Origin: a virus
Reading direction: 5' to 3' (one strand)
IMG/VR virus record: IMGVR_UViG_3300020392_000017
Location: 1 to 60,134 of that record
Length of the DNA stretch: 60,134 nt
A program made the position numbers and the translations under genes. Positions 231 through 21,647 of this stretch are shown piece after piece; position 1 is the first letter of the stretch, and each line of letters opens with the position of its first letter. The notes beneath the pieces are model-generated. The model was given only the letters and a program-made list of their open reading frames with translations. It was not told the DNA's origin and did not search any database.

Positions 231-1502
231 ATGAAGATATACACAAATTTTACAGAATTCATAAACGAAAAGCTCCAGGTAAACAACTTGGAGAACTTCG
301 TATTTGAGGGTGGGGCTGCAGGACACATGATGCACCCATTCGATGACAACTCACTTACATTTGCTGACTTTAAGAGAATTGTGAACTCTGCTTTACAGGG
401 AGGTCTTGATTTTGAAGAGGCTCCAACTGAAAAGACAGATGGTCAGAATGTATTCGCAACTGTAAAGGATGGTAAAGCTATGTTTGCTAGAAACAAAGGC
501 CAACTAGCTAATCCACTCGACTTAAATGGTATCATTAAGATGTTCACTGGCCACGCTTCAAAGCTGGTTGAAGAAACATTCATCTTCGCTGCTAAAGATC
601 TAGCAGAAGCGCTCCCAAAGCTTAAGGACCAATCTGTATTCCAAGACGGTAAGTCTTTTATCAACATGGAGTTAATTTACTCCAAAAACCCTAATGTAAT
701 TTACTATGATAGAGATGTTATTCAATTCCACGGTATGAAAGTTACTGATGGTAATGGTAATATCATAGGTGAAGAGAATATCGCAGCAGAAATAGTAAAA
801 GCACTGAGAGAGTTAAAAGCTGATATTGGTAAAACATTTACAATAATTCCCCCTCAAATTTTAAAGCTAGCAAAAGATATTAACTTTGATGAGAGAGTCG
901 GCTATTACGAAAAAGCGATAAATAAACTAAGAGATACTTATGGTTTATCAGATCAAGATGAAGTCAAAATGTATCACGAGGCTTGGTGGAGAAACCAAAT
1001 CGAAGAGAACTTTGCAGATTTAGACCCAGCATTAAAAGAAGGTCTTTTATTAAGATGGGCATATTTAGACAAGAAGACTCTAAATATGAGAGATTTAAAG
1101 AAGGCAGTTACTCCAGAACAAGCAAAAGCCGTCAAAGATTTTGATGGTCAAAGAAATAAGAAGTATAAAGAAAACATTCTACCTTTCGAGAACCTATTTT
1201 TAGAATTAGGTGCAGATGTTTTAAAGAACGTTTCTAATTTTGTTGCTGCTAATCCAGAAGCTGAGAAAGCAAGATTACATAAGCAAATCAGATCTGAAGC
1301 AGATAAAGTTAGAAAGAACGGCGACCTAAAACAAATCGATAAAGTAGAAAAAGAATTAAAGAGACTAGAAGGTATTGGTGGTATCGAGTCAATTATTCCA
1401 ACAGAAGGTCTAGTCTTTAAATACAATGGTAAAACATTCAAGTTAACTGGTACTTTTGCCGCTATTAACCAGTTGATGGGTATTATTAAATACGGTAGAT
1501 AA
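231..1502 (+). CDS. Capsid-tagged protein with a covalent nucleotidyltransferase (ligase-like) core
   Basis: 423 residues. The N-terminus MKIYTNFTEFINEK closely resembles the T4 capsid-targeting sequence MKTYQEFIAEA, with a possible protease site after INE (residue 13). A GGAAGHMMHPFD block follows at 27-38. Ligase-superfamily motifs are visible: motif I EKTDGQN with candidate nucleotidyl lysine K68, a motif III-like FINMELIY near 143-150, motif IV EGLVFKY near 392 and motif V FKLTG just after. About 180 mostly helical, charged residues separate motifs III and IV, unlike a minimal DNA or RNA ligase. The substrate cannot be told. The gene next door also has a ligase-like domain, so the two may cooperate. 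The ATG follows an A-rich leader without a Shine-Dalgarno sequence. Confidence 0.7.
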   Translation: MKIYTNFTEFINEKLQVNNLENFVFEGGAAGHMMHPFDDNSLTFADFKRIVNSALQGGLDFEEAPTEKTDGQNVFATVKDGKAMFARNKGQLANPLDLNGIIKMFTGHASKLVEETFIFAAKDLAEALPKLKDQSVFQDGKSFINMELIYSKNPNVIYYDRDVIQFHGMKVTDGNGNIIGEENIAAEIVKALRELKADIGKTFTIIPPQILKLAKDINFDERVGYYEKAINKLRDTYGLSDQDEVKMYHEAWWRNQIEENFADLDPALKEGLLLRWAYLDKKTLNMRDLKKAVTPEQAKAVKDFDGQRNKKYKENILPFENLFLELGADVLKNVSNFVAANPEAEKARLHKQIRSEADKVRKNGDLKQIDKVEKELKRLEGIGGIESIIPTEGLVFKYNGKTFKLTGTFAAINQLMGIIKYGR

Positions 1503-1511
1503 TAAAATACT

Positions 1512-3371
1512 ATGGCACTAAATAACTTAAAAACATATTTCGAAGGAGCTAATATCGCAGACGTTGACAAACTTCTCAACCACAAATGTATTGTGACTGA
1601 GAAAATTAACGGCTCATCTTTTCACGCTAGAAGACAAGGCAATGATTTTGCATTCTATAAGTCAGGTTCTAAAGACAAGATGAATGTAGTCGATAGAACA
1701 ATCGTTAGATATTATGAGAATGCGATTAGACATTTTAGATCTGTTTCACAAGATGTTGTAGAAGATATGCCATTCGATTGGAAATTCGGTTTCGAATATC
1801 TAGCAGATAGTAAAACTCTAGATGTTGACTATGATTTATTACCGAAATCAAATTTAATACTAACACATATACAAGTATTACAACCTTCTAATCCTAACAA
1901 AATTAGAAAGGTAATTAGAGATACTAAAGTACTTAATAAGTGGGCAGATAAATTAGGTGTTGAAAAACCACCAGTAATTTTCGAAGGCTTACTAGACTCA
2001 GGTCAAAAGGATAAACTTAAGCAAACTCTCGCAATGTCAATCAATGAATTTGAAGACATGTTTGAGAATGAAGAAAAACCTTCTTTCACAAGAACTATAT
2101 ACGGTATCTTCAATGAGAACATGAAGCAATCAGCTTTAATGAATGACCTATCTAAGGATGCTGCAGGCTTTATTATTAATTTTCACGATGGTAAAAGCAT
2201 TCAATCATACTTATTAGAGAAGTTTAATAAAAAGCCTAGACCAGATAGAAAACCATCTGACATGTATCAGATTACTATCTTAGATATTGTTGAACACCTA
2301 TCTCAGTTTGATTTTGCTTCAATCCAATTGAATGAAGAAAAACCAGGCTATAGATATTTAGAGTTAATGTCAAGTATATTTAATGACTATGTTCAAGCAA
2401 ATGCAACAAAATATATTGGTGCTAAATTTGACTCTGCAGATTTTTCAGAGTCTCCGATGTTTGAGTTAAACACAAAGTTTATTAATAACGAGAAAACTCT
2501 AACATTAGTACAAGATAAAATTTTAATGGAATTGTTTAAAATTACTTTAGGCTCTTTCAGAAAGAAAAGACATAAAGAGACTGCTCTAATTAATACAGAT
2601 CTAATGCAAGAAATAAATGACATCATTGAGAAAATAGAGAATATGGTGATGGCAAAAACAAACGAAGGCGATGTCATGAATTTTAAACAATATCTACTTA
2701 ACCAATCAATTGATGGTAAAATCAGTCCAATTACAGAAGGTCTAACTGTAAAGTATAAAGACCAAGGTAAGAAGCTCGTAAATATGTTTGTTGGTAGATT
2801 TCAACCATTTACATTAGGACATGCAAAAGTTATAGAAACTATCAATAAGCAAAATGGCTATCCAGTTGTTATCTTCCTAATTAAGTCTAAGACTAAGAAA
2901 GCAGAAGATGCATTCAAGAGACCTTATGATGAAGAAACTCAATTAGCAATGTTAAACAGATTAAAGTCTTCATATCCAATTGAAGATGTAATTATTTTAC
3001 CAACAGCAGCAATTGATAAAATGTTCAACGAATTAAGACCTAAGTACGAACCAGTACTTTGGGGAACTGGAACTGATAGAATGAAAGTATATGGCTATCA
3101 AGTAGACAAGCAAGAGTATAGAGAAGACTTAGGTGTTAGAGATGATTTTGGTCTATTTGAAATTCCAAGATCAGGTAAGAACATTTCAGCTACTCAAGTT
3201 AGAAACGCGATGCTTGATGGCAACGAAAGACTATTTAAAAAATTAACTCCGAAGGGAGTTCACGGTATGTACGGTGAATTAAAGATGAAGTTAGAAGACT
3301 CAATGGGTGTGATGGCAGAATCTAATGAGACAGAGTTCTTAACCTTCGATGAGTTTGTGAAGAATATATAA
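1512..3371 (+). CDS. Fusion of an RNA-ligase-like domain and an NMN adenylyltransferase-like domain
   Basis: 619 residues in two catalytic parts. Residues 1-240 look like an Rnl2-type RNA ligase: motif I TEKINGSSFHA (candidate K31), motif III FGFEYLAD at 92-98, and AGFIINF at 218-224 in place of motif IV. Residues 425-600 look like a NadM/NadR-type nucleotidylyltransferase: GRFQPFTLGH at 428-437 (HxGH variant) and ISATQVR at 558-564 (ISxTxxR signature). This domain would make NAD from NMN and ATP, or a related dinucleotide. Between the parts, MNFKQYLLNQ (389-398) then SPITEG (405-410) looks like an internal capsid tag plus an IxE cleavage site. The C-terminus FLTFDEFVKNI resembles the tag again. 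Joining these two activities is unusual. It lies 9 nt after the previous ligase-like gene. Confidence 0.75.
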   Translation: MALNNLKTYFEGANIADVDKLLNHKCIVTEKINGSSFHARRQGNDFAFYKSGSKDKMNVVDRTIVRYYENAIRHFRSVSQDVVEDMPFDWKFGFEYLADSKTLDVDYDLLPKSNLILTHIQVLQPSNPNKIRKVIRDTKVLNKWADKLGVEKPPVIFEGLLDSGQKDKLKQTLAMSINEFEDMFENEEKPSFTRTIYGIFNENMKQSALMNDLSKDAAGFIINFHDGKSIQSYLLEKFNKKPRPDRKPSDMYQITILDIVEHLSQFDFASIQLNEEKPGYRYLELMSSIFNDYVQANATKYIGAKFDSADFSESPMFELNTKFINNEKTLTLVQDKILMELFKITLGSFRKKRHKETALINTDLMQEINDIIEKIENMVMAKTNEGDVMNFKQYLLNQSIDGKISPITEGLTVKYKDQGKKLVNMFVGRFQPFTLGHAKVIETINKQNGYPVVIFLIKSKTKKAEDAFKRPYDEETQLAMLNRLKSSYPIEDVIILPTAAIDKMFNELRPKYEPVLWGTGTDRMKVYGYQVDKQEYREDLGVRDDFGLFEIPRSGKNISATQVRNAMLDGNERLFKKLTPKGVHGMYGELKMKLEDSMGVMAESNETEFLTFDEFVKNI

Positions 3372-3390
3372 ACAAATATAGCATATTATT

Positions 3391-3795
3391 ATGGAAAACG
3401 TTTTATCATTCGAAGATTTCAAAAACTCAGTAAATGAGTCAATCCAATTCGGCTCATATCACTTTAGTGACAGAACATCATTCGGAGAACACAGTGATGA
3501 TTTACCTGAAAAAGGTGAAAGTAAATTTTTAGTAATGTCACATACTGAAGTAGAGTTTGATGGCAGAAGATACAGACTAGATGGTCAACATACTAGTTTT
3601 GGTCAAGGAAGTAAAAGATATATTATTGGTCTTTTTGAAGACGAAGCTTCTGCTACAGAAGCATACAAGAATGCCATAAAAAAACCAGAAGGCGCATACG
3701 TTTCTTTCTCAATGGGAACATTAACTGCAAAATCTAAATTTGCATTTATGTACACTGAAAAAGAGGGACACCTAGCAAAAATTAAAGTAAGATAA
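3391..3795 (+). CDS. Small protein with capsid-targeting-like N-terminus, function unknown
   Basis: 134 residues. The N-terminus MENVLSFEDFKNSVNES fits the shared tag (hxxFxxFxxxhNE) with a candidate cleavage after VNE at residue 16. The remaining 118 residues are soluble and beta-rich in appearance, with the phrase EVEFDGRRYRLDGQH and no motif I recognise. It sits 19 nt after the ligase/NMNAT fusion and 2 nt before the next tagged protein, in one transcription unit. An AATATATAA stretch at 3364 just before the gene is a weak match to the phage late promoter. Confidence 0.65.
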   Translation: MENVLSFEDFKNSVNESIQFGSYHFSDRTSFGEHSDDLPEKGESKFLVMSHTEVEFDGRRYRLDGQHTSFGQGSKRYIIGLFEDEASATEAYKNAIKKPEGAYVSFSMGTLTAKSKFAFMYTEKEGHLAKIKVR

Positions 3796-3797
3796 TC

Positions 3798-5963
3798 ATG
3801 GCATCATTCGAAGACTTTTTATCAGAAGGTAAGAAATTACAAATCAAAAGAAAATATACAGAGAACCACCCTGCTAAAACCGTAGGTAAAACTGCTAATG
3901 TAAGAAATGCAGTCCTACAAGCTATTAAAGATGGTGTGGTGACAAGAGAAGAGTTCAACAAAATTCTTTCTGAGTTATCTGCTGATTCTAGACAATGGTC
4001 TTCTAGAAACAGAAAGTATTTCAATATCTCTGAAGAAGGTATTAAACTTTCAAAGTGGGGTATGAGAATTCTAAATGAATTAGACTCTGAAGAAGAGGAA
4101 ATGATTCTATCTGATGAAATTAGTGAGAATGTAAAAGTCTTAAAAGACAAATGGCCTTATGTTGAGTTTAAACTAAAAGGCAAAAAGCATAAAGTAGACT
4201 TTGAGTACGAAGATGAAATTGATGACCACGGTAACGAAGGTAAAGATCAATACTATAGAGGAGAAGATGAAGACGGTAATTTCTTTGAAGTAGATGTCTA
4301 TGCTGATTCCAGAGGTGAAGTACAAGATGTATTATATGATACTCTAGTACAAGTTGATGAATCTACAGTAAACGAGAAAGATGATGCAGGTACTCACTTA
4401 GATAATTTAGAATCTATTGTAGGTAAAGCTAGAGATTTCTTTGCAATCGGTAAAGAACTAGATAAAGGTGGTTACAAAAAGAAATACTTCTATAGCGATA
4501 CGATGGCTCCATCATATACAATTGAAGTAGATGGCTTCAAGTTCGCTATCATTAATAAAAAGTATGTTGACAAAGGAGACAGAGAAGTTGGAGACATCGC
4601 AATCGGACTATTAGAAAATATGAATACAAACATGGAAAATAAAAAACTAAACGAAGCTAAAGAATTAGCTATCGGTGAAAAAGGAGTCGACTATAACGAT
4701 AATGTTGTAGAAGTGATAGCAATCGACAGATACAGAAAAATTGCTCAAATGTTCAAAAAAGAAATGAAGGCAGATGCTGAAGATTATGGTTTTGAAGAAA
4801 CTGTAAAGGGAGACTACTACCTCACTAAGAACATCGAATCAGAAGAGGGTAATGTAGGTGACTTTGCAATCTATCCAGTAAAATATGATTTCTCAATGTA
4901 TTGGGGCTTAGATCCAGTAAAAGAATCTTTTAGCCTATTTGAATCATTCGGAGATTTCTTAAATGCTAAAGGTTTTCTTAACGAAGCAATTAACTCTTCT
5001 ATTTTAAGATCAGTTTTATCGAATGGTAGAGAGGGTAAACAAGGTAAGAAAAATCTTTCTATGTTAGCTAAAGGTTTTTATGGATTATCTAAAGTAGCTC
5101 TTGATAAAATTGAAGATGAAGATTTCATTATTAGTAATGATGTAAGTAAAATCTTTAAGAACTATGGTGGTAATAGCCATGTACTTTTCTTTATCTCAGA
5201 TAATGAGAAAGAAAACCCATACTATGATACAAAGAACGGATCTTGGAATGACTATAAGATGGTTCCAGGTGGAGGTATTGTATTAGCAGCTATGTCTGGT
5301 GATAGACAATTCTTCCGTAACGAATGGTCAAGATGGTCAGGTGGTAGAGTTTGGTCTAAAGATAAAAAAGGTGACGAAGGACAAATTGGTATCAACCATA
5401 AATACAGAGGTTGGGGCGCATCAGGACTTAACAACGGTAAGAGAATTGCAGAGATGTCTGATAGAGTTATTGTTATTAACTTAGAATTAATTAGACAAAA
5501 GTATTCTACTGACCAATTAAGAAAAGCTAGAGCAGAAGCTAAAGCAGGTGCATCAGCTTTCAAATCTGATAAAGAATTTAAAGATGCTAACGTAAATAGA
5601 TACCACAAGATCTTAGCTGATAAAGCAGCAAGTTTACCACTAGATAAAATGGTATCAGATGCAATCGATAAACTGGCTAAGCAAATCTCAGATGGTTTAG
5701 CTAAAGGTGAGAAGACTCAATATAATGAAATTAAAATTGGTGTAAGTCCTAAAGGTAGAGATGTAAAAGCAAGAGACGCATCTCAACACATGTCGAATAT
5801 CTTAGATAACTATGGTAGATATGTAGATTACATTAGACAAGGTGAAGAATCTGAAGCTAGATACGGTGAAAGAGAATCTTACTATGAGAGAGAAGCTAAG
5901 AACTACGCTAAAGACGTTAAAGATAAAATCAACAAGATTGATAGTTTCGACTACGCTTGGTAA
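3798..5963 (+). CDS. Large capsid-tagged multi-segment protein, function unknown
   Basis: 721 residues. The N-terminus MASFEDFLSEGKK carries the shared tag with a candidate cut after LSE. More tag- or site-like stretches occur inside: DESTVNEKDD, KKLNEAKEL (just after an in-frame ATG near 4632) and FESFGDFLNAKGFLNEA (about residues 382-398). These divide the chain into at least three segments, as if it were a polyprotein for the prohead protease. The first segment is basic then acidic. The last, about 320 residues, contains GGGIVLAAMSGDRQFFR, a WSRWSGGR patch, and a helical DRVIVINLELIRQKY/LRKARAEAKAGA region. I do not recognise an enzyme family, so a host-directed effector is speculation. 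It is followed 17 nt later by another tagged gene. Confidence 0.6.
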   Translation: MASFEDFLSEGKKLQIKRKYTENHPAKTVGKTANVRNAVLQAIKDGVVTREEFNKILSELSADSRQWSSRNRKYFNISEEGIKLSKWGMRILNELDSEEEEMILSDEISENVKVLKDKWPYVEFKLKGKKHKVDFEYEDEIDDHGNEGKDQYYRGEDEDGNFFEVDVYADSRGEVQDVLYDTLVQVDESTVNEKDDAGTHLDNLESIVGKARDFFAIGKELDKGGYKKKYFYSDTMAPSYTIEVDGFKFAIINKKYVDKGDREVGDIAIGLLENMNTNMENKKLNEAKELAIGEKGVDYNDNVVEVIAIDRYRKIAQMFKKEMKADAEDYGFEETVKGDYYLTKNIESEEGNVGDFAIYPVKYDFSMYWGLDPVKESFSLFESFGDFLNAKGFLNEAINSSILRSVLSNGREGKQGKKNLSMLAKGFYGLSKVALDKIEDEDFIISNDVSKIFKNYGGNSHVLFFISDNEKENPYYDTKNGSWNDYKMVPGGGIVLAAMSGDRQFFRNEWSRWSGGRVWSKDKKGDEGQIGINHKYRGWGASGLNNGKRIAEMSDRVIVINLELIRQKYSTDQLRKARAEAKAGASAFKSDKEFKDANVNRYHKILADKAASLPLDKMVSDAIDKLAKQISDGLAKGEKTQYNEIKIGVSPKGRDVKARDASQHMSNILDNYGRYVDYIRQGEESEARYGERESYYEREAKNYAKDVKDKINKIDSFDYAW

Positions 5964-5980
5964 TATAACACGATAAAGAT

Positions 5981-6532
5981 ATGAAAATAATTCCAACATT
6001 CGAACAATTCTTAAACGAGAAAACATATAGACTTTCTGGTTACTATTCTGCTAAAGGCTTAATCGGTAAGATTATGCAAGCTTTCAAGAAGCAGATACAA
6101 GGCCTAAAACATGAAGGTGATGTCATGGGTACTTTAGAAGAAGTAAACAAGGAATGGGACAAATTCAAGAAAGACGCACATAAAATGATTTTAGACCAGG
6201 TTAAGAAAGCAGTAGGTAGTATGGACGGAGTTGTATTCGTAACAGCAGATCTATCTAAGTGGTCTATGGATGAGGTAAATGGCCTTAATGATTTAGAAGG
6301 TGAATTTGCTTCTTCATTATACATTGCACTATTAGATGGTGATATGGTAATCAATGTTGGTTTTGCAGATGACGTTGACGCTGGTAAATACAAAAGAAAG
6401 TTTGACAAAGAGTCTTACCAAAATTCAGCTATTGCTACAGAAGATGATGTAATCTTCGGTACAATTTCTGATGTAGGTGATAATAACCTAGAGCTAAGAG
6501 CTGGTGAAGTCATGCAGATTGACGCAAAGTAA
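5981..6532 (+). CDS. Capsid-tagged small protein, function unknown
   Basis: 183 residues. MKIIPTFEQFLNEKTYR is one of the clearest tags in the window, with hydrophobic residues, the F..F pair and LNE at 11-13 as a likely cut site. The mature part starts with a short amphipathic segment, then a charged helical region (EEVNKEWDKFKKDAHK), then an acidic C-terminal half containing LDGDMVINVGFADDVD. No catalytic motif was recognised. It is co-directional with its neighbours, and the gap before the next gene is 17 nt. Confidence 0.6.
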   Translation: MKIIPTFEQFLNEKTYRLSGYYSAKGLIGKIMQAFKKQIQGLKHEGDVMGTLEEVNKEWDKFKKDAHKMILDQVKKAVGSMDGVVFVTADLSKWSMDEVNGLNDLEGEFASSLYIALLDGDMVINVGFADDVDAGKYKRKFDKESYQNSAIATEDDVIFGTISDVGDNNLELRAGEVMQIDAK

Positions 6533-6549
6533 AAATACTAAAAAAGGAG

Positions 6550-6756
6550 TTGGCATCTTGTAAATTAAAAGAAAGTAGTAAAGAATATAAAAGAGACAGT
6601 AATAATAAAATGACCAAGAAATGGGCATGGAAACATTACACTGTTCACAACACTTCAACAGAAGAGTTACTAAAGGCTTACGAGAATTCCAACATGCGTA
6701 GAAAGAAGAACATAATTAGAAAAGAATTAGAGAAAAGAAATGCCATCAGTAAGTAA
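6550..6756 (+). CDS. Small basic protein, TTG start likely
   Basis: 68 residues if TTG at 6550 is used; the first ATG in frame is at 6610 and would leave 48 residues. The first 20 residues (ASCKLKESSKEYKRD...) look like normal coding sequence, which favours the upstream start. An AGGAG directly touches the TTG, too close for a classical ribosome binding site. The body is rich in Lys, Arg and aromatic residues (KKWAWKHYTVHNTSTEELLKAY) and ends in a basic helix. It overlaps the start of the next gene by 17 nt in another frame, suggesting translational coupling. It is the only gene of the 231-8095 run without a capsid-like tag. No function is assigned. Confidence 0.5.
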   Translation: MASCKLKESSKEYKRDSNNKMTKKWAWKHYTVHNTSTEELLKAYENSNMRRKKNIIRKELEKRNAISK

Positions 6757-8095
6757 ATCACAACAGAGATTAATGGGAGTTGCATACGCAGTTAAATCTG
6801 GTAGTATGAAACTTAAAGACGTAGACTCAGCTTATAGAGATAAAGTTAAATCTATGGTAGATGGTATGACTAAGAAAGATCTAAAGAAATACGCTTCAAC
6901 AAAACACGATAAATTACCAGAGACAGTAGATGAGACCTATCAACAGACTGCGATTACTCCAGCTGTTATCGGTGGTATGGGAGGCGTTGCTTTTCCTTCA
7001 GCTGGACAATTAGGCTCAGGTGATTTCCCTCACACAATGGTTCAAGTCGCAGATATTGATGACGACGAGGAAAAGAAAAAACAAAAAGGTACAGTGAAGA
7101 ATTTACAAGCAGAAGATCTAGCGTTAACTTTCAAAGCTTTCGTAAACGAAAAGTTTGACCAACGTCCTGGTGAATTAGTTAAAGATCTACATTTTGAGAC
7201 AGATCCTAAGAAAGCTGAAGCGATGAAAATCGAATTAGGTAGAAGACAGGGAGAGGTTACAACAAGAAAGCAAATTGAAGGCGGCGATTATTCTCTAAGA
7301 AGATTTAGAAAAGAGATTAGATATGGTGATGGTTCATACGTTGGAGTATTTATGCCAGGCTCTTATGATGCTGCTACCTCTAAATTAGGTGATGGTCCAC
7401 ATAAGAAAGCAGTTAAGAAAGTAAAGTGGAACTATAAGAAATATCAACAGTGGGTTGATGATGTAGCTTCTAATGATGGTTGGAGACATGCATACGATAT
7501 GGCACAAAATGCAAAGCATGAACCAGGATTACTACAGTGGGCTAAGAAAGAATTTAGAGGAGAAGATGTAATGCAGAGAATTCAATGGGATATTGAAGCT
7601 TATGCAGAATCTGTAGTTACTGAAAAGAAACTTAAATTTAAAGTAGGTGATTTCATTAAAAAGAAGAAAAAGTATGGTGGTGGAGCCTTGTCGTATGAAA
7701 TTAAAGCTATTAAGCCAAAATTTAATGCGGTTGAAATTTATCTAGACGTTACAGGTAAAAGCCAAATGCAAACATTTCAACATATTGAAAAAGAATGGGA
7801 ACTTGCAGAATCTGTAGTTAACGAAAAGAAGTTAGACAGAGAAGATATGATGAAGTTCGTTGACAAGTATATGAGAATAGCTGGAACATCAGAAGAATTT
7901 AACGGAAGCGAAGGAGGTATTTGGGTTTCAGGAGAAGATATGGATGAGTTCAAAGGACAAGTAATATATGACTACTATGCTGAAGGCAGAGGTTATGAGC
8001 TGGGAGTAAATGTCAAGTGGGAAAAGGAACTTAATAAAAGAGGATGGTATAGTGAGTGGTACGATGCAGGCACCGTACAAATATGGCCTATATAA
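6740..8095 (+). CDS. DUF3008-like N-terminus joined to capsid-tagged modules
   Basis: 451 residues. Residues 1-62 (MPSVSKSQQRLMGVAYAV ... KKYASTKHDKLPETV) match the pattern of the small DUF3008 family of phage and bacterial proteins. A linker with an acidic DDDEEKKK patch leads to LTFKAFVNEKFDQ near residue 129, a tag placed internally with a VNE site. Two near-identical decapeptides, AESVVTEKK (about 289) and AESVVNEKK (about 355), each precede a new module. The first module has a KFKVGDFIKKKKKYGG start; the second is acidic. The duplicated VxE junctions look like protease processing sites that release separate products. The gene ends its operon: a strong terminator follows 25 nt later. Confidence 0.6.
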   Translation: MPSVSKSQQRLMGVAYAVKSGSMKLKDVDSAYRDKVKSMVDGMTKKDLKKYASTKHDKLPETVDETYQQTAITPAVIGGMGGVAFPSAGQLGSGDFPHTMVQVADIDDDEEKKKQKGTVKNLQAEDLALTFKAFVNEKFDQRPGELVKDLHFETDPKKAEAMKIELGRRQGEVTTRKQIEGGDYSLRRFRKEIRYGDGSYVGVFMPGSYDAATSKLGDGPHKKAVKKVKWNYKKYQQWVDDVASNDGWRHAYDMAQNAKHEPGLLQWAKKEFRGEDVMQRIQWDIEAYAESVVTEKKLKFKVGDFIKKKKKYGGGALSYEIKAIKPKFNAVEIYLDVTGKSQMQTFQHIEKEWELAESVVNEKKLDREDMMKFVDKYMRIAGTSEEFNGSEGGIWVSGEDMDEFKGQVIYDYYAEGRGYELGVNVKWEKELNKRGWYSEWYDAGTVQIWPI

Positions 8096-12795: not shown

Positions 12796-13260
12796 ATGGC
12801 GAACGCAGATAACAAATGTGCAGATTTGAAAGTTGAAGACTTTCACGCAGAAGCTGAAGATACACTCGGCCTAATTTACAACAAACAAGTAGAACTACAA
12901 AAACGTTTAGGTTTCGACTTTACTGGTTGGACACTAAAAGAAATCGCAGATTTCTGGTGTGTTAACAAACATGCAATGTCAGACGAACTAAACGAAATGT
13001 TTGATGCATTAGGAGGTATCAATGATGGAATTGGCTCAGCAGCTTGGAAGTACTGGAAAGGTACTCATAAAGATGCAGCTAATATGAAGATTGAAGATTT
13101 GTCTGAAGAGGACAAGTTAGAACTATTTTATGAATGGATTGATGGATTGCATTTCTATATGAACTTTGCAATTTCTATTGGTATGACTTCAAAAGATATT
13201 GTTAACTTGTACATGGCGAAGAATGCAGAAAATCACGACAGACAAAACCGAGGCTATTAA
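12796..13260 (+). CDS. Dimeric all-alpha dUTPase (MazG-like superfamily)
   Basis: 154 residues. The pattern LQKRLGFDFTGWTLKE, SDELNEMFDALGG, EWIDGLHFYMNFAISIGM and YMAKNAENHDRQNRGY fits the dimeric dUTPase/dCTPase family, with acidic residues for magnesium (ExxE in helix 2, E..D in helix 4) and the KN..N..RQ.GY end. It hydrolyses dUTP to dUMP, protecting DNA from uracil and feeding dTMP synthesis. It overlaps the polymerase N-terminal gene by one base, so both belong to the replication and nucleotide unit. The start ATGGC follows an AT-rich leader with no Shine-Dalgarno. Confidence 0.8.
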   Translation: MANADNKCADLKVEDFHAEAEDTLGLIYNKQVELQKRLGFDFTGWTLKEIADFWCVNKHAMSDELNEMFDALGGINDGIGSAAWKYWKGTHKDAANMKIEDLSEEDKLELFYEWIDGLHFYMNFAISIGMTSKDIVNLYMAKNAENHDRQNRGY

Positions 13261-14666
13261 TGTTATTAGATATTGAACAATTAGAAAAAGAAGTAATAGT
13301 ATCTTATTACGATAAAGAAGGCAAAGTTGCTTTCAAACGTTATCCAATCGATAAATTTCAAAACTGGGTAGTTGCTAAAAAAGATGATAGATGGAAAGAC
13401 CAAAACGTCACAAACTGGGATGGTCGTCCAATCAAGAAGTCTTTAGCTAGATCGTTTAATAAGTTCTCATTACTTTACTTCATGGATGGTCTTCCACAAA
13501 AAGACCAAGATGAAATCTTTGAGTTTAATATGCCTAAAACATACTTTGTCGATATTGAGACAGAGATTGTTGATGGCTTCCCAAAACCTGAAGAGGCTAA
13601 GTCTAGAATCTTAACCTTTTCAATTATCACACCAGAAAGAAAAGCTATCGTATTAGGTCTTGAAGATCTATCTTCCGATGAGATTAAAAAGATTGAAGAC
13701 GATAACAATAAACACTTTACTGGTTACGACCAAGACTGGGAATTTAGTTATTACAAATTTAAGTCGGAGTATGACATGGTTTATACATTCCTACATAAGT
13801 TTTTACCTAAGTTTCCTATGATGACTGGTTGGAATTTTATCAACTATGACTGGCAATATATTGTCAACAGATGTAAAATCTTACAGATTGATTTAACAGA
13901 AGTTGCTATTACTGGTTCGCTTGATAGAAAAGACTCTCGCCCACTTCACATGGGTATTTTGGACTACATGCAACTGTATGATAAATATGATAGGTCAGTT
14001 GCGGTTAAAGAATCTAATGCGTTAGCATTCGTTTCCGGAGCAGTCCTCGAGGGTATAAGCAAGATCCAATACACAGGTTCTCTCCAAGACCTCTACGAAA
14101 ACGACTTTCAAAAGTATGTTTTCTATAACGTAGTTGACTCTGTCTTGGTTTACTACATTGACCAAAAGCTTAGGTCGATGGAAGTACTGCTAACATTAGC
14201 AACAATCACGAGAATGCCTTTGTATAAAGCCGCTTCACCAGTGGCTGTTACTGAATCTCTAATGGCTCGTAAACTTACCGAACTAGGAAAACGTATCGGT
14301 GTAGAATATGACAGAGAAGACAGTAAGAAGGATAGCAAATATGAAGGAGCATTCGTTAAACAACCAATTGTCGGTTATTATGGTGGTGTAAGTGCATTTG
14401 ACTTTGCATCACTATATCCATCGATTATGAGGCAGTTTAACATTTCTCCTGACTCATTCGTCGAAATGGTAGAGGAATCACAGATTAAAGATCGCCGAGA
14501 GGATAAAGATGTAATTGTCTGTGAGAATGGCGTAGTCTATAAGAAGGAAGATAGTATTCTTAAAAAGATATTGGCAGATTTATATGACCAAAGAAGAGAA
14601 TACAAGAAAACTTCTTATGATTATTATGAAAAAGCGCACGAACTTGAGAAAAAATTTAGGCTCTAA
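13260..14666 (+). CDS. 43: Family B DNA polymerase, N-terminal part (exonuclease and motif A)
   Basis: 468 residues, half of a T4 gp43-type polymerase. Exo I is YFVDIETEI with D98 and E100; Exo II is the NFINYDWQY region near 190; Exo III is YNVVDSVLVYY near 290. Polymerase motif A is DFASLYPSI near 381. The chain ends in the fingers helix (LYDQRREYKKTSYDYYEKAHELEKK) and a stop at 14664. Motifs B and C are missing here and appear in the separate gene at 20439. No frameshift can explain this because six other genes lie between. The two proteins must assemble to give an active enzyme. A late-type promoter and hairpins follow directly. Confidence 0.9.
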   Translation: MLLDIEQLEKEVIVSYYDKEGKVAFKRYPIDKFQNWVVAKKDDRWKDQNVTNWDGRPIKKSLARSFNKFSLLYFMDGLPQKDQDEIFEFNMPKTYFVDIETEIVDGFPKPEEAKSRILTFSIITPERKAIVLGLEDLSSDEIKKIEDDNNKHFTGYDQDWEFSYYKFKSEYDMVYTFLHKFLPKFPMMTGWNFINYDWQYIVNRCKILQIDLTEVAITGSLDRKDSRPLHMGILDYMQLYDKYDRSVAVKESNALAFVSGAVLEGISKIQYTGSLQDLYENDFQKYVFYNVVDSVLVYYIDQKLRSMEVLLTLATITRMPLYKAASPVAVTESLMARKLTELGKRIGVEYDREDSKKDSKYEGAFVKQPIVGYYGGVSAFDFASLYPSIMRQFNISPDSFVEMVEESQIKDRREDKDVIVCENGVVYKKEDSILKKILADLYDQRREYKKTSYDYYEKAHELEKKFRL

Positions 14667-17667: not shown

Positions 17668-17750
17668 GTGGTTTGAAGACCACGTCTTAGGACCGAGATA
17701 GTTCTCGGAAAAAGAGGGCCGGAGTTCGCTACTACCGGCCCTTATTTATT
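17668..17750 (+). terminator. Bidirectional terminator and three-hairpin element
   Basis: Three adjacent stems lie between the convergent nrdA and the minus-strand gene: GTGGT/ACCAC (17668-17672, 17679-17683), CCGAGA/TCTCGG (17693-17698, 17703-17708) and AGGGCCGG/CCGGCCCT (17715-17722, 17735-17742). The last is followed by TTATTTATT on the plus strand and by a T-rich tract on the minus strand, so it can stop transcription from both sides. The first two stems have no obvious termination role. Confidence 0.75.
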
Positions 17751-18900
17751 ATAGCAGTTTGGAAAACTTTTCAGCTTCTATCTCTCTGATTTTATCAGCA
17801 ATCTCTGCACCTTTCACATCAAATTGCTTCATTACATCTCTACCGTTAGTAGAAGGTTTGTATTTAAGAAAAGCTCTAATCATTTTCATATCTAATCTTT
17901 TCAATACTGAGAATTCTAGGATAGTCTTTTTATCTAAGTCTACACTATCTCTCTTCTTACTCAATTCAAATACACCTTCTGGTTTTAGAGTTAGAAGAGA
18001 CTTCAAGAAAATAATAGCTTTAATCTCTTTATCTGAAAATGTTAACTTATTCATTTGAGATTTAATCTGGCTATTTTCATTTACTAAAAACAGATTAGCT
18101 ATTTGTACCAACCAATCCTTTGAATTGATGAAGTCTTTATTGACGTAAACAGTAGGAAACATTACAGGCCAAAGCTTAAAGTCTTCCACCATCTGTAAGT
18201 ATTTCTTTGGAGACTTTGCAGTTTCTATAGATTTCTTAAATTCATCTCTAATTCTTTCTGCACTAATTCCCTCTAAAGAGTTATCAGAAATAATAGCCTC
18301 TGCAGTATTCTTTTCTATCTTACCTCCAGTTCTACCAGCAAATCTTAGGGCTCTTAGTTTTCTCAATGGATCTTCCTCAAATCTCTCTTGAGCTCTACCT
18401 ACAGTTCTAATAGAATTAGATTGAATATCCGCAATACCACCGACTAGGTCTACTACTTCTTTCTTTTCAATATCGTAGAATAAAGCATTGATAGTTAAGT
18501 CTCGTCTTAGAACGTCTTTATCAATTGTAGAAAAGTTAACAGCATCTGGTCTTCGACCTTTACCAATATCTTCTCTAAAAGTTGCAATCTCCATACCCTC
18601 TTTAAATGAAGGAGTTTTTGCAATTACAACTCCGAATTGAGTTCCTACTTCACCGATAGTATCAATACCACCAGATTTAAGTATTTTTACAACTTCATCT
18701 GGTTTAGCATCAGTAGCTAAATCAAAGTCTTTTGGTTTGATACCTAACATTGCATCCCTAACCGCACCACCAACTACATAAAGTTCTCTCTTATTCTTCT
18801 TAAAGAGTTTATGTAGATCTTTGACATCACGAGGTATGTTTAGCTTCAATCTCTGTTGAGCTTCTAACAATAAGTTGAATTGTGTGTACGACTTTATCAT
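17749..18900 (-). CDS. CCA-adding/poly(A) polymerase-type tRNA nucleotidyltransferase with a capsid-type tag
   Basis: 383 residues on the minus strand. The catalytic head shows YVVGGAVRDAMLG (GG at 44-45) and DFDLAT with metal-binding D58 and D60. RRDLTINALFYD and EDPLRKLRALRFAGR, typical of class II enzymes, follow. It would add or repair the 3' CCA of tRNA, or add A tails. The first 14 residues, MIKSYTQFNLLLEA, resemble the T4 capsid-targeting sequence, and LLE before A fits the prohead protease rule. Its promoter is of the TGTCA type rather than the late type, which argues somewhat against virion packaging. It is one of only two minus-strand genes in the window. It converges on nrdA. Confidence 0.85.
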   Translation of the reverse strand: MIKSYTQFNLLLEAQQRLKLNIPRDVKDLHKLFKKNKRELYVVGGAVRDAMLGIKPKDFDLATDAKPDEVVKILKSGGIDTIGEVGTQFGVVIAKTPSFKEGMEIATFREDIGKGRRPDAVNFSTIDKDVLRRDLTINALFYDIEKKEVVDLVGGIADIQSNSIRTVGRAQERFEEDPLRKLRALRFAGRTGGKIEKNTAEAIISDNSLEGISAERIRDEFKKSIETAKSPKKYLQMVEDFKLWPVMFPTVYVNKDFINSKDWLVQIANLFLVNENSQIKSQMNKLTFSDKEIKAIIFLKSLLTLKPEGVFELSKKRDSVDLDKKTILEFSVLKRLDMKMIRAFLKYKPSTNGRDVMKQFDVKGAEIADKIREIEAEKFSKLL

Positions 18901-20438: not shown

Positions 20439-21647
20439 ATGAACGTAACGAAACTCTCTGAGAAACCTATCGATCAACTTAGTAGAGAAGAGGCGGAGCT
20501 GCTTGTAGACCACTACAAGCAGTTATCTGCTAAATATACGGCTTATGAACAAGCAGTAAAATTAACTCTTAACTCTATCTACGGTGCATTCGGTAACAAA
20601 TGGTTTCACTTCTTTAATATCAATATCGCCGAGTCGATAACTAAACAGGGTAAGAATGCTATTCTCTACTCTGAATCTATATTGAATAAGTATTGTCAAG
20701 AGTTTTGGCATAAAGACACTAAAGTACACGAGCAGTTCGGCTTAACAGTAAAAGGTAAAGTTGAAAAGCCTGCAGTAATCTATATTGACACTGACTCGTG
20801 TTACGTGCAGTTTCAAGATCTTTATGAGACTATCGTTTGGAACGATGAGTCTAAAGCTCTACCTATCGACGAGTTTATTCTAGCATTCTATGCATTTAGA
20901 CTCAAGGATTACATCACGGCATGTATGAAGAAATATGCAGACTCTAGAAACACAGACAACTTCTTATTCTTTGAATTAGAATCTCTAGCATATAATGGTA
21001 TTTGGATGTCTAAAAAGAAGTATATTCAAAACATTGCATGGGATGATAAATTGGAAACTACCGATAGACACCCATCACTTAAGAAAGTAAAAACAATCGG
21101 CTTTGATACTATCCAATCTTCTACACCAAAATTCGCCCGCGAAAAACTGGTAGAAGCTCTTAGAATTTTATTTAAGTCACAAAAAACTCCCGGTGCTGAA
21201 GAACTACAACAATTAGTCACATTCATGAAGAATTCTAAGAAAGAATTTCAACTTGCAAACATCGATGACATCTCATTCAATAGAAGAACTAACAACATTG
21301 AGAAGTATATTGTCGACGATCAAATTGAGTTCCAAGTAGGATTAAAATGTCCAGCTAATGTAAAAGCAGCAGGGTATTACAACTATATTCTTAATCAAAA
21401 TAAAAAGTTTAAGAATAAGTACAAAGTAATCGGTAACGGTGAGAAACTAAAAATCTATAACTGTAAGACTCCAATCTCTGAGGTATTTGCCTATTTACCA
21501 GGTGAACATCCTTACGAAATTGCTCCTAAAGTAGATTTCGATACACAGTTTGAAAAGTGTATGATTGACCCACTTAATAGAGTATTAACAGCAATTGGTC
21601 TTCAGACCTTAGATACAAACTTAATTTACGCATCAGCATTATTTTAA
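20439..21647 (+). CDS. 43: Family B DNA polymerase, C-terminal part (motifs B and C)
   Basis: 402 residues. A short helical lead (residues 1-40) goes into motif B, KLTLNSIYGAFGNK at 41-54. Motif C, YIDTDSCYV near 114-122, holds the catalytic DTD. The thumb follows, ending in ASALF, a possible clamp-binding tail. It lacks the exonuclease and motif A, which are in the gene at 13260. The lead EEAELLVDHYKQLSAKYTAYEQAVKL looks like the second fingers helix, so the break falls at the fingers tip where no catalytic residue is lost. No intein-like sequence is visible at either end, so the halves likely associate without splicing. Confidence 0.9.
   Translation: MNVTKLSEKPIDQLSREEAELLVDHYKQLSAKYTAYEQAVKLTLNSIYGAFGNKWFHFFNINIAESITKQGKNAILYSESILNKYCQEFWHKDTKVHEQFGLTVKGKVEKPAVIYIDTDSCYVQFQDLYETIVWNDESKALPIDEFILAFYAFRLKDYITACMKKYADSRNTDNFLFFELESLAYNGIWMSKKKYIQNIAWDDKLETTDRHPSLKKVKTIGFDTIQSSTPKFAREKLVEALRILFKSQKTPGAEELQQLVTFMKNSKKEFQLANIDDISFNRRTNNIEKYIVDDQIEFQVGLKCPANVKAAGYYNYILNQNKKFKNKYKVIGNGEKLKIYNCKTPISEVFAYLPGEHPYEIAPKVDFDTQFEKCMIDPLNRVLTAIGLQTLDTNLIYASALF

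Follow-up and report, generated by a model that had tools for sequence, protein, structure and literature searches.

The open reading frame at positions 1512 to 3371 (+) of the window, the 60,134-nucleotide stretch of viral DNA analysed here, probably encodes the precursor of a T4-type internal head protein, a capsid cargo that is packaged, cleaved and injected. The predicted protein of 619 amino acids consists of an N-terminal half with the fold of T4 RNA ligase 2 (Rnl2) and a C-terminal half resembling NMN adenylyltransferases (NMNAT). Several observations favor the cargo reading, 1) the linker between the halves carries a packaging-like tag in 102 of 102 distinct fusion sequences and a predicted prohead-protease site in 100 of them, both within a disordered and variable stretch, 2) the layout is that of the T4 IPI leader, neighboring genes are also tagged and the window encodes gp20, a gp21-like protease and gp23, 3) NMNAT-like proteins have been detected in cyanophage virions, cyanophage genes have similar leaders and the domains have been reshuffled with the leader retained and 4) the ligase half has decayed, none of 106 distinct sequences having the canonical catalytic set.

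The fusion and its two halves

An earlier note on this DNA had proposed two domains in one protein, and the uninterrupted frame together with the 102 distinct sequences bears this out, showing that the fusion is conserved and real. A first scan matched 22 loci, at identities of 49-100%, and a profile scan gave 284 encoded relatives. Among the fetched loci, which were retrieved by means of the fusion itself, both domains were present in 175 open reading frames and none had the NMNAT half alone, while those with only the ligase half came from huge phages, contig ends or an interrupted frame (L014). A 462-kb phage also has the fusion, with 35% identity over 93% of the query. The 22 loci, the 175 fusion frames and this phage rule out an assembly accident, and the fusion is old and maintained. 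An overall pTM of 0.58 means that the AlphaFold model does not predict how the halves are placed relative to each other. The best matches among predicted viral structures were a 623-residue full-length relative and a 436-residue ligase-only relative (rmsd 2.4, 385 columns), and the fusion profile matched NMNATs among PDB sequences, along with chance matches. The host is probably a member of the Flavobacteriaceae, the lead being one Flavobacteriaceae MAG contig; T4-like viruses of marine Bacteroidetes have already been described (PMC7198788).

The ligase half, designated LIG2 (residues 1-380, 1512 to 2651), had no Pfam match by sequence. The AlphaFold model was confident over residues 1-235 (pLDDT mostly 84-97), and Foldseek identified T4 RNA ligase 2 as the best PDB match (2hvr, E 1.2e-7), followed by 2hvq (4.8e-7), 1s68 (5.4e-5), tRNA ligases and Rnl1. 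The search thus indicated the Rnl2 nucleotidyltransferase fold, with poor residue-level rmsd values. The VIA-align listing for the whole fusion was filled by NMNAT folds and so bears on the C-terminal half.

Motif I of the ligase half, TEKINGSSF, parallels REKIHGTNF in the T4 Rnl2 record. Its lysine, K31 (1602 to 1604), is present in 97 of the 106 distinct sequences; the replacements (Q in four, D in three, N in two) occur in deep relatives, and the near clade retains K31 throughout. Positions beyond motif I were assigned by predicted strand order rather than residue-level structural alignment, since hhalign could not align the ligase half with T4 Rnl2. The glycine of motif I is alanine in 71 sequences and motif III is E or D, with Q or N in six. 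The motif IV glutamate position is occupied by D in 75, A in 14 (including the window protein), E in 10 and S in seven, and the second motif V lysine is replaced by Glu in 81. The window protein has Ala at the motif IV glutamate position and Leu and Glu in place of the two motif V lysines. Mutagenesis of T4 Rnl2 established that these motif positions are essential in that enzyme, and no sequence among the 106 combined the Rnl2 residues of motifs I, III, IV and V. As judged from the predicted fold, this half is a pseudo-ligase or a ligase of altered kind. The conservation of K31 across the near clade counts against a dead domain, which would not need the lysine, and may reflect residual or altered chemistry.

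The C-terminal half (residues 420-600, 2769 to 3311) matched Pfam CTP_transf_like (5.8e-9, residues 425-565), TIGR00125 (4e-9) and, far below their own cut-offs, NadM-type models (about 1e-6). In VIA-align the model aligned to archaeal NMNATs, the best match being M. jannaschii NMNAT (1f9a, Z 14.4, rmsd 2.5, 155 residues), with PPAT and NadD structures scoring almost equally, so that the scores firmly support the fold but not a particular substrate. The (H/T)xGH motif, GRFQPFTLGH (2793 to 2822), was found in all relatives that cover it, with variation at position 435 in four, and in the ISxTxxR motif, ISATQVR (3183 to 3203), S559, A560, V563 and R564 are invariant. With both motifs on an NMNAT fold, this half is a NMNAT-like nucleotidyltransferase of the HIGH superfamily; most simply, its product would putatively convert NMN and ATP to NAD+.

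Structure prediction, which the earlier note had proposed as a check, therefore recovered both folds. The NMNAT-type half was confirmed in fold and motifs. The Rnl2-like domain was upheld in its fold and in K31, but not in the remainder of the active site, where most of the Rnl2 catalytic residues are missing.

Putative packaging tags, the predicted cut site and neighboring genes

AlphaFold gave pLDDT values below 50 for residues 383-409, and amid the variable columns of the linker residues 391, 394 and 409-411 stand out (F391 in 101 of 106 sequences, Y or F394 in all 106, E409 in 99, A or G410 in 104 and L411 in 100). The first two belong to the embedded tag, MNFKQYLLNQ (residues 389-398, 2676 to 2705), whose [FY]xx[FY] pattern occurs in every fusion. 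Residues 409 and 410 belong to the sequence I-T-E↓G (residues 407-410, 2730 to 2741; the arrow marks the cut), where the prohead protease is predicted to cleave, and L411 follows it. The general form of the site, [ILVM]x[ED]↓[AG], was absent as a simple pattern from two diverged relatives, L024 and L136, and the cargo may also be carried uncut. The end of the protein carries a second tag, LTFDEF (C-terminal tag EFLTFDEFVKNI, 3333 to 3368), and 93 of the 102 fusions have a tag there.

In T4, the targeting determinants of IPIII are residues 4 and 7, the leader is cut after L/I-X-E and Alt is cleaved at its two ends (PMC9026906). The leaders in the T4 record are MKTFKEFTSTTTPVSTITE↓A for IPI (FKEF…ITE↓A) and MKTYQEFIAE↓A for IPIII. 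The linker of the window protein, NFKQY...SPITE↓G, fits both the published layout and the IPI leader, with aromatic residues three apart followed by L/I-x-E↓A/G as in the T4 internal head proteins. With so short a tag and so loose a cut rule, individual sites may occur by chance. The tag-like sequence and the ITE-G site pointed out in the earlier note are thus conserved in otherwise variable linkers, and its suggestion of a possible separation of the halves within the virion is the best supported part of that reading.

Pfam identified gp20, a Peptidase_S77 prohead protease, gp23 and a T4-type terminase in the window, so a gp21-family protease, the presumed processing enzyme, is encoded by the same genome (35782 to 38133 (+), 2e-12). 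In its reading frame the protease domain is joined to a very long stretch of acidic and repetitive sequence, perhaps as a protease-scaffold fusion. Elsewhere in the window, the frames at 13260-14666 and 20439-21647 (+) resemble, by eye, parts of a split family-B DNA polymerase; they are about 5.8 kb apart, with ribonucleotide reductase-like and other genes between them.

Immediately upstream of the fusion is a second ligase-like gene, LIG1 (231 to 1502 (+)), with an N-terminal tag, NFTEFINE, and an FVFE↓G site. Residues E67-K68, D70-G71, R87, E147, E392-G393 and K404 were invariant in 103 of 103 LIG1 sequences, as were E26 and G27 at the cut site. The predicted model was confident, and the best structural matches were the N. 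gruberi ligase (Z 9.3), T4 Rnl1 (8.3) and T4 Rnl2 (8.0), values in the grey zone; the LIG1 profile gave only spurious matches to PDB sequences. On all fetched DNA that includes both genes, LIG1 precedes the fusion, in most cases directly and in some with an insertion between them. Judging by its sequence, the intact ligase-like enzyme is LIG1 rather than the N-terminal half of the fusion. No sequence-profile homology was detected by hhalign between LIG2 and T4 Rnl2, between LIG2 and LIG1 or between LIG1 and the cyanophage family DUF6267, so these relations are ones of structure and motifs only.

A gene on the other strand (17749 to 18900 (-)) encodes a tRNA-nucleotidyltransferase-type protein (PolyA_pol, 5e-33; PHROG tRNA nucleotidyltransferase, 5e-58) with the N-terminal leader MIKSYTQFNLLLE↓A. 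The tag and LLE↓A were retained in five relatives, which suggests a virion-packaged RNA-repair enzyme. In L042, the gene lies within the gene run of the fusion. Downstream of the fusion (3391 to 8095 (+)), N-terminal tags occur in the genes beginning at 3391, 3798 and 5981. Over the window, 7 of 49 genes have an N-terminal tag (1.6 expected), and in the relatives the tag was found in 38% of the open reading frames downstream of the fusion vs 6.8% of interior segments. The genes at 3798-5963 and 6740-8095 (+) also have internal tag-like stretches (SFGDFLNAKGFLNE↓A and LTFKAFVNE); their sequences suggest that they may be multi-part cargo precursors as well.

The domains are not always combined in the same way. 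In three relatives (L167:7266-10619, L171:7254-10622 and L181:7266-10610), a third domain of about 500 residues follows the C-terminal tag in a single open reading frame of 1,114-1,122 amino acids. In L218, a contig of the Flavobacteriaceae MAG UBA5079, the NMNAT-like domain is on a different tagged partner, the domain that begins window gene 3798; the two are separated by an LNE↓A site and the leader is kept. The C-terminal part of the ligase half is fused there to the third domain. The third domain had no Pfam or PHROG match in any of these four loci. Such modularity fits precursors of cut cargo and argues against a fixed two-enzyme machine.

Proposed route and alternative explanations

If the gene product is capsid cargo, its tags would bind to the prohead core and the phage's own Peptidase_S77 protease would cleave it at ITE↓G as the head matures. 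The resulting two proteins would then enter the cell separately, along with the DNA. The one resembling NMNAT would act as a nucleotidyltransferase very early in infection, putatively adenylylating NMN. The pseudo-ligase product would function otherwise than by ordinary ligation, for example by binding RNA or nucleotides as a partner of LIG1. In the weakest step of the scheme, the pseudo-ligase product, LIG1 and the tagged tRNA nucleotidyltransferase may together constitute a packaged RNA-repair kit. A tentative generalization, which we consider somewhat unlikely, is that T4-like phages infecting marine Flavobacteria load into their heads, ahead of infection, a polyprotein-derived RNA-repair and nucleotide kit comprising active LIG1, the pseudo-ligase, the NMNAT-like enzyme and the tRNA nucleotidyltransferase. 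The capsid protease would free the components from their precursors, the NMNAT-like enzyme would recycle the ligase cofactor or repair NAD, and the kit would act at injection, before phage gene expression.

The presence of K31 throughout the near clade, and of ligase-motif and NMNAT-like pairs, fused or neighboring, in many T4-like phages, would also suit a working bifunctional enzyme in which the ligase half self-adenylylates, perhaps with NAD+ as the AMP donor and release of NMN, while the other half uses NMN and ATP to restore NAD+, the two chemistries being coupled. This explanation is quite unlikely given that the full Rnl2 catalytic set is lacking throughout, that K31 is replaced by Q, N or D in deep relatives, that a conserved predicted cut site separates the halves and that huge phages have the ligase half alone while the NMNAT-like domain of L218 has another partner. 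The coupling of NAD synthesis to sealing in one protein, as proposed in the earlier note, is weakened by the lost ligase residues, the cut site and the L218 pairing, and its suggestion of NAD capping of RNA found no specific support. Two overlapping products, with the NMNAT half and its leader also made from the ATG at 2676, are very improbable. This codon directly precedes the tag and has GAAGG upstream, but Met389 is present in only 61 of 106 relatives. Most others have L, Y, H or Q at this position, and the tag nevertheless persists; the internal start was rejected on this ground.

The earlier note had also raised the countering of NAD-depleting defence, which is possible but, in our estimate, unlikely. 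The injected NMNAT half would rebuild NAD+ after the action of a host NADase, the ligase fold serving as a carrier or packaging domain. The NMNAT motifs are intact, phage pathways that rebuild NAD (PMC9503650) and virion NMNAT-like proteins (PMC10665884) are known, and NadV was found in 4 of 22 large related contigs and in five of five huge phages. On the other hand, the PPAT and NadD structures match the C-terminal half nearly as well as NMNAT does. To our knowledge, NMN is not produced by NADases. Moreover, phage NadM is always accompanied by NadV (PMC9503650), yet NadV was not found in 18 of the 22 large contigs, which may be incomplete; the window's own record is a 60-kb fragment.

Comparison with known phage systems

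The capsid cargo reading would explain a puzzling enzyme fusion, and a tag with E↓A/G between domains would be a testable sign by which to find injected enzymes among the abundant marine phages of the T4 type. Phages may, moreover, deliver tRNA-repair enzymes by injection and not depend solely on their synthesis after infection. NMNAT-like cargo is not itself new, since NMNAT-like proteins were detected in purified virions of cyanophages S-SM1, S-CBWM1, S-SZBM1, S-SCSM1 and S-CREM2 (PMC3037559, PMC10665884), with contamination considered possible by the authors of PMC10665884. The new elements are the tag and site embedded in the linker, the partnership with a pseudo-ligase and the tag on a tRNA-repair-like gene. 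In the open-access literature, we found no description of an RNA-ligase-NMNAT phage fusion, of DUF6267 or of packaged RNA-repair enzymes.

As judged by motifs and structure searches, other T4-like phages likewise have a ligase-motif protein next to or fused with an NMNAT-like domain. DUF6267 and NMNAT are fused in cyanophage metaG-MbCM1, adjacent in S-CAM9, S-CAM4 and P-RSM3 and one small gene apart in a Methylophilales phage. Ligase-motif/NMNAT fusions occur in Campylobacter CPt10 and Vibrio phiKT1024, and neighboring genes in Stenotrophomonas Moby and Xanthomonas X1. The metaG-MbCM1 protein (YP_007001680.1, L189:3903-6089) is annotated as 'NrdB ribonucleotide reductase A subunit', a misannotation, as Pfam identifies DUF6267 (3e-81) and an NMNAT-like domain.

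The cyanophage pair of DUF6267 and 'cytitidyltransferase' (S-PM2, metaG-MbCM1 and others) has KxDG, EGxV and K motifs adjoining or fused to an NMNAT-like domain with a tag-like leader (e.g. MKKFSEIIE↓A), and was matched by the fusion in whole-model Foldseek searches. By motif, DUF6267 is closer to LIG1 than to the degenerate ligase half, and the ligase-fold/NMNAT-fold question thus extends to this widespread gene pair. The huge phages LR756501, LR756502, LR756504 and LR745206 have the ligase half without the NMNAT half. Their proteins are homologous over residues ~20-406 (24-27% identity); they have D or N where motif I has its lysine, and a tag-like LLNFNDYF near the C-terminus. T4 Rnl2 is the best solved fold match of the N-terminal half and has a similar motif I, but the latter lacks the motif IV glutamate and the motif V lysines and has no significant sequence similarity to it. 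The C-terminal half shares with NadM-type NMN adenylyltransferases the fold, GRFQPF(T/H)xGH and ISxTxxR, but has no Nudix domain and scores far below the NadM model cut-offs. Finally, T4 IPI, IPIII and Alt have, like the fusion linker, an aromatic i/i+3 tag followed by L/I-x-E↓A/G, the IPI leader ending in ITE↓A and the linker in ITE↓G, whereas in the fusion, for which packaging is predicted, the tag and site lie between enzyme domains and a tag recurs at the C-terminus.
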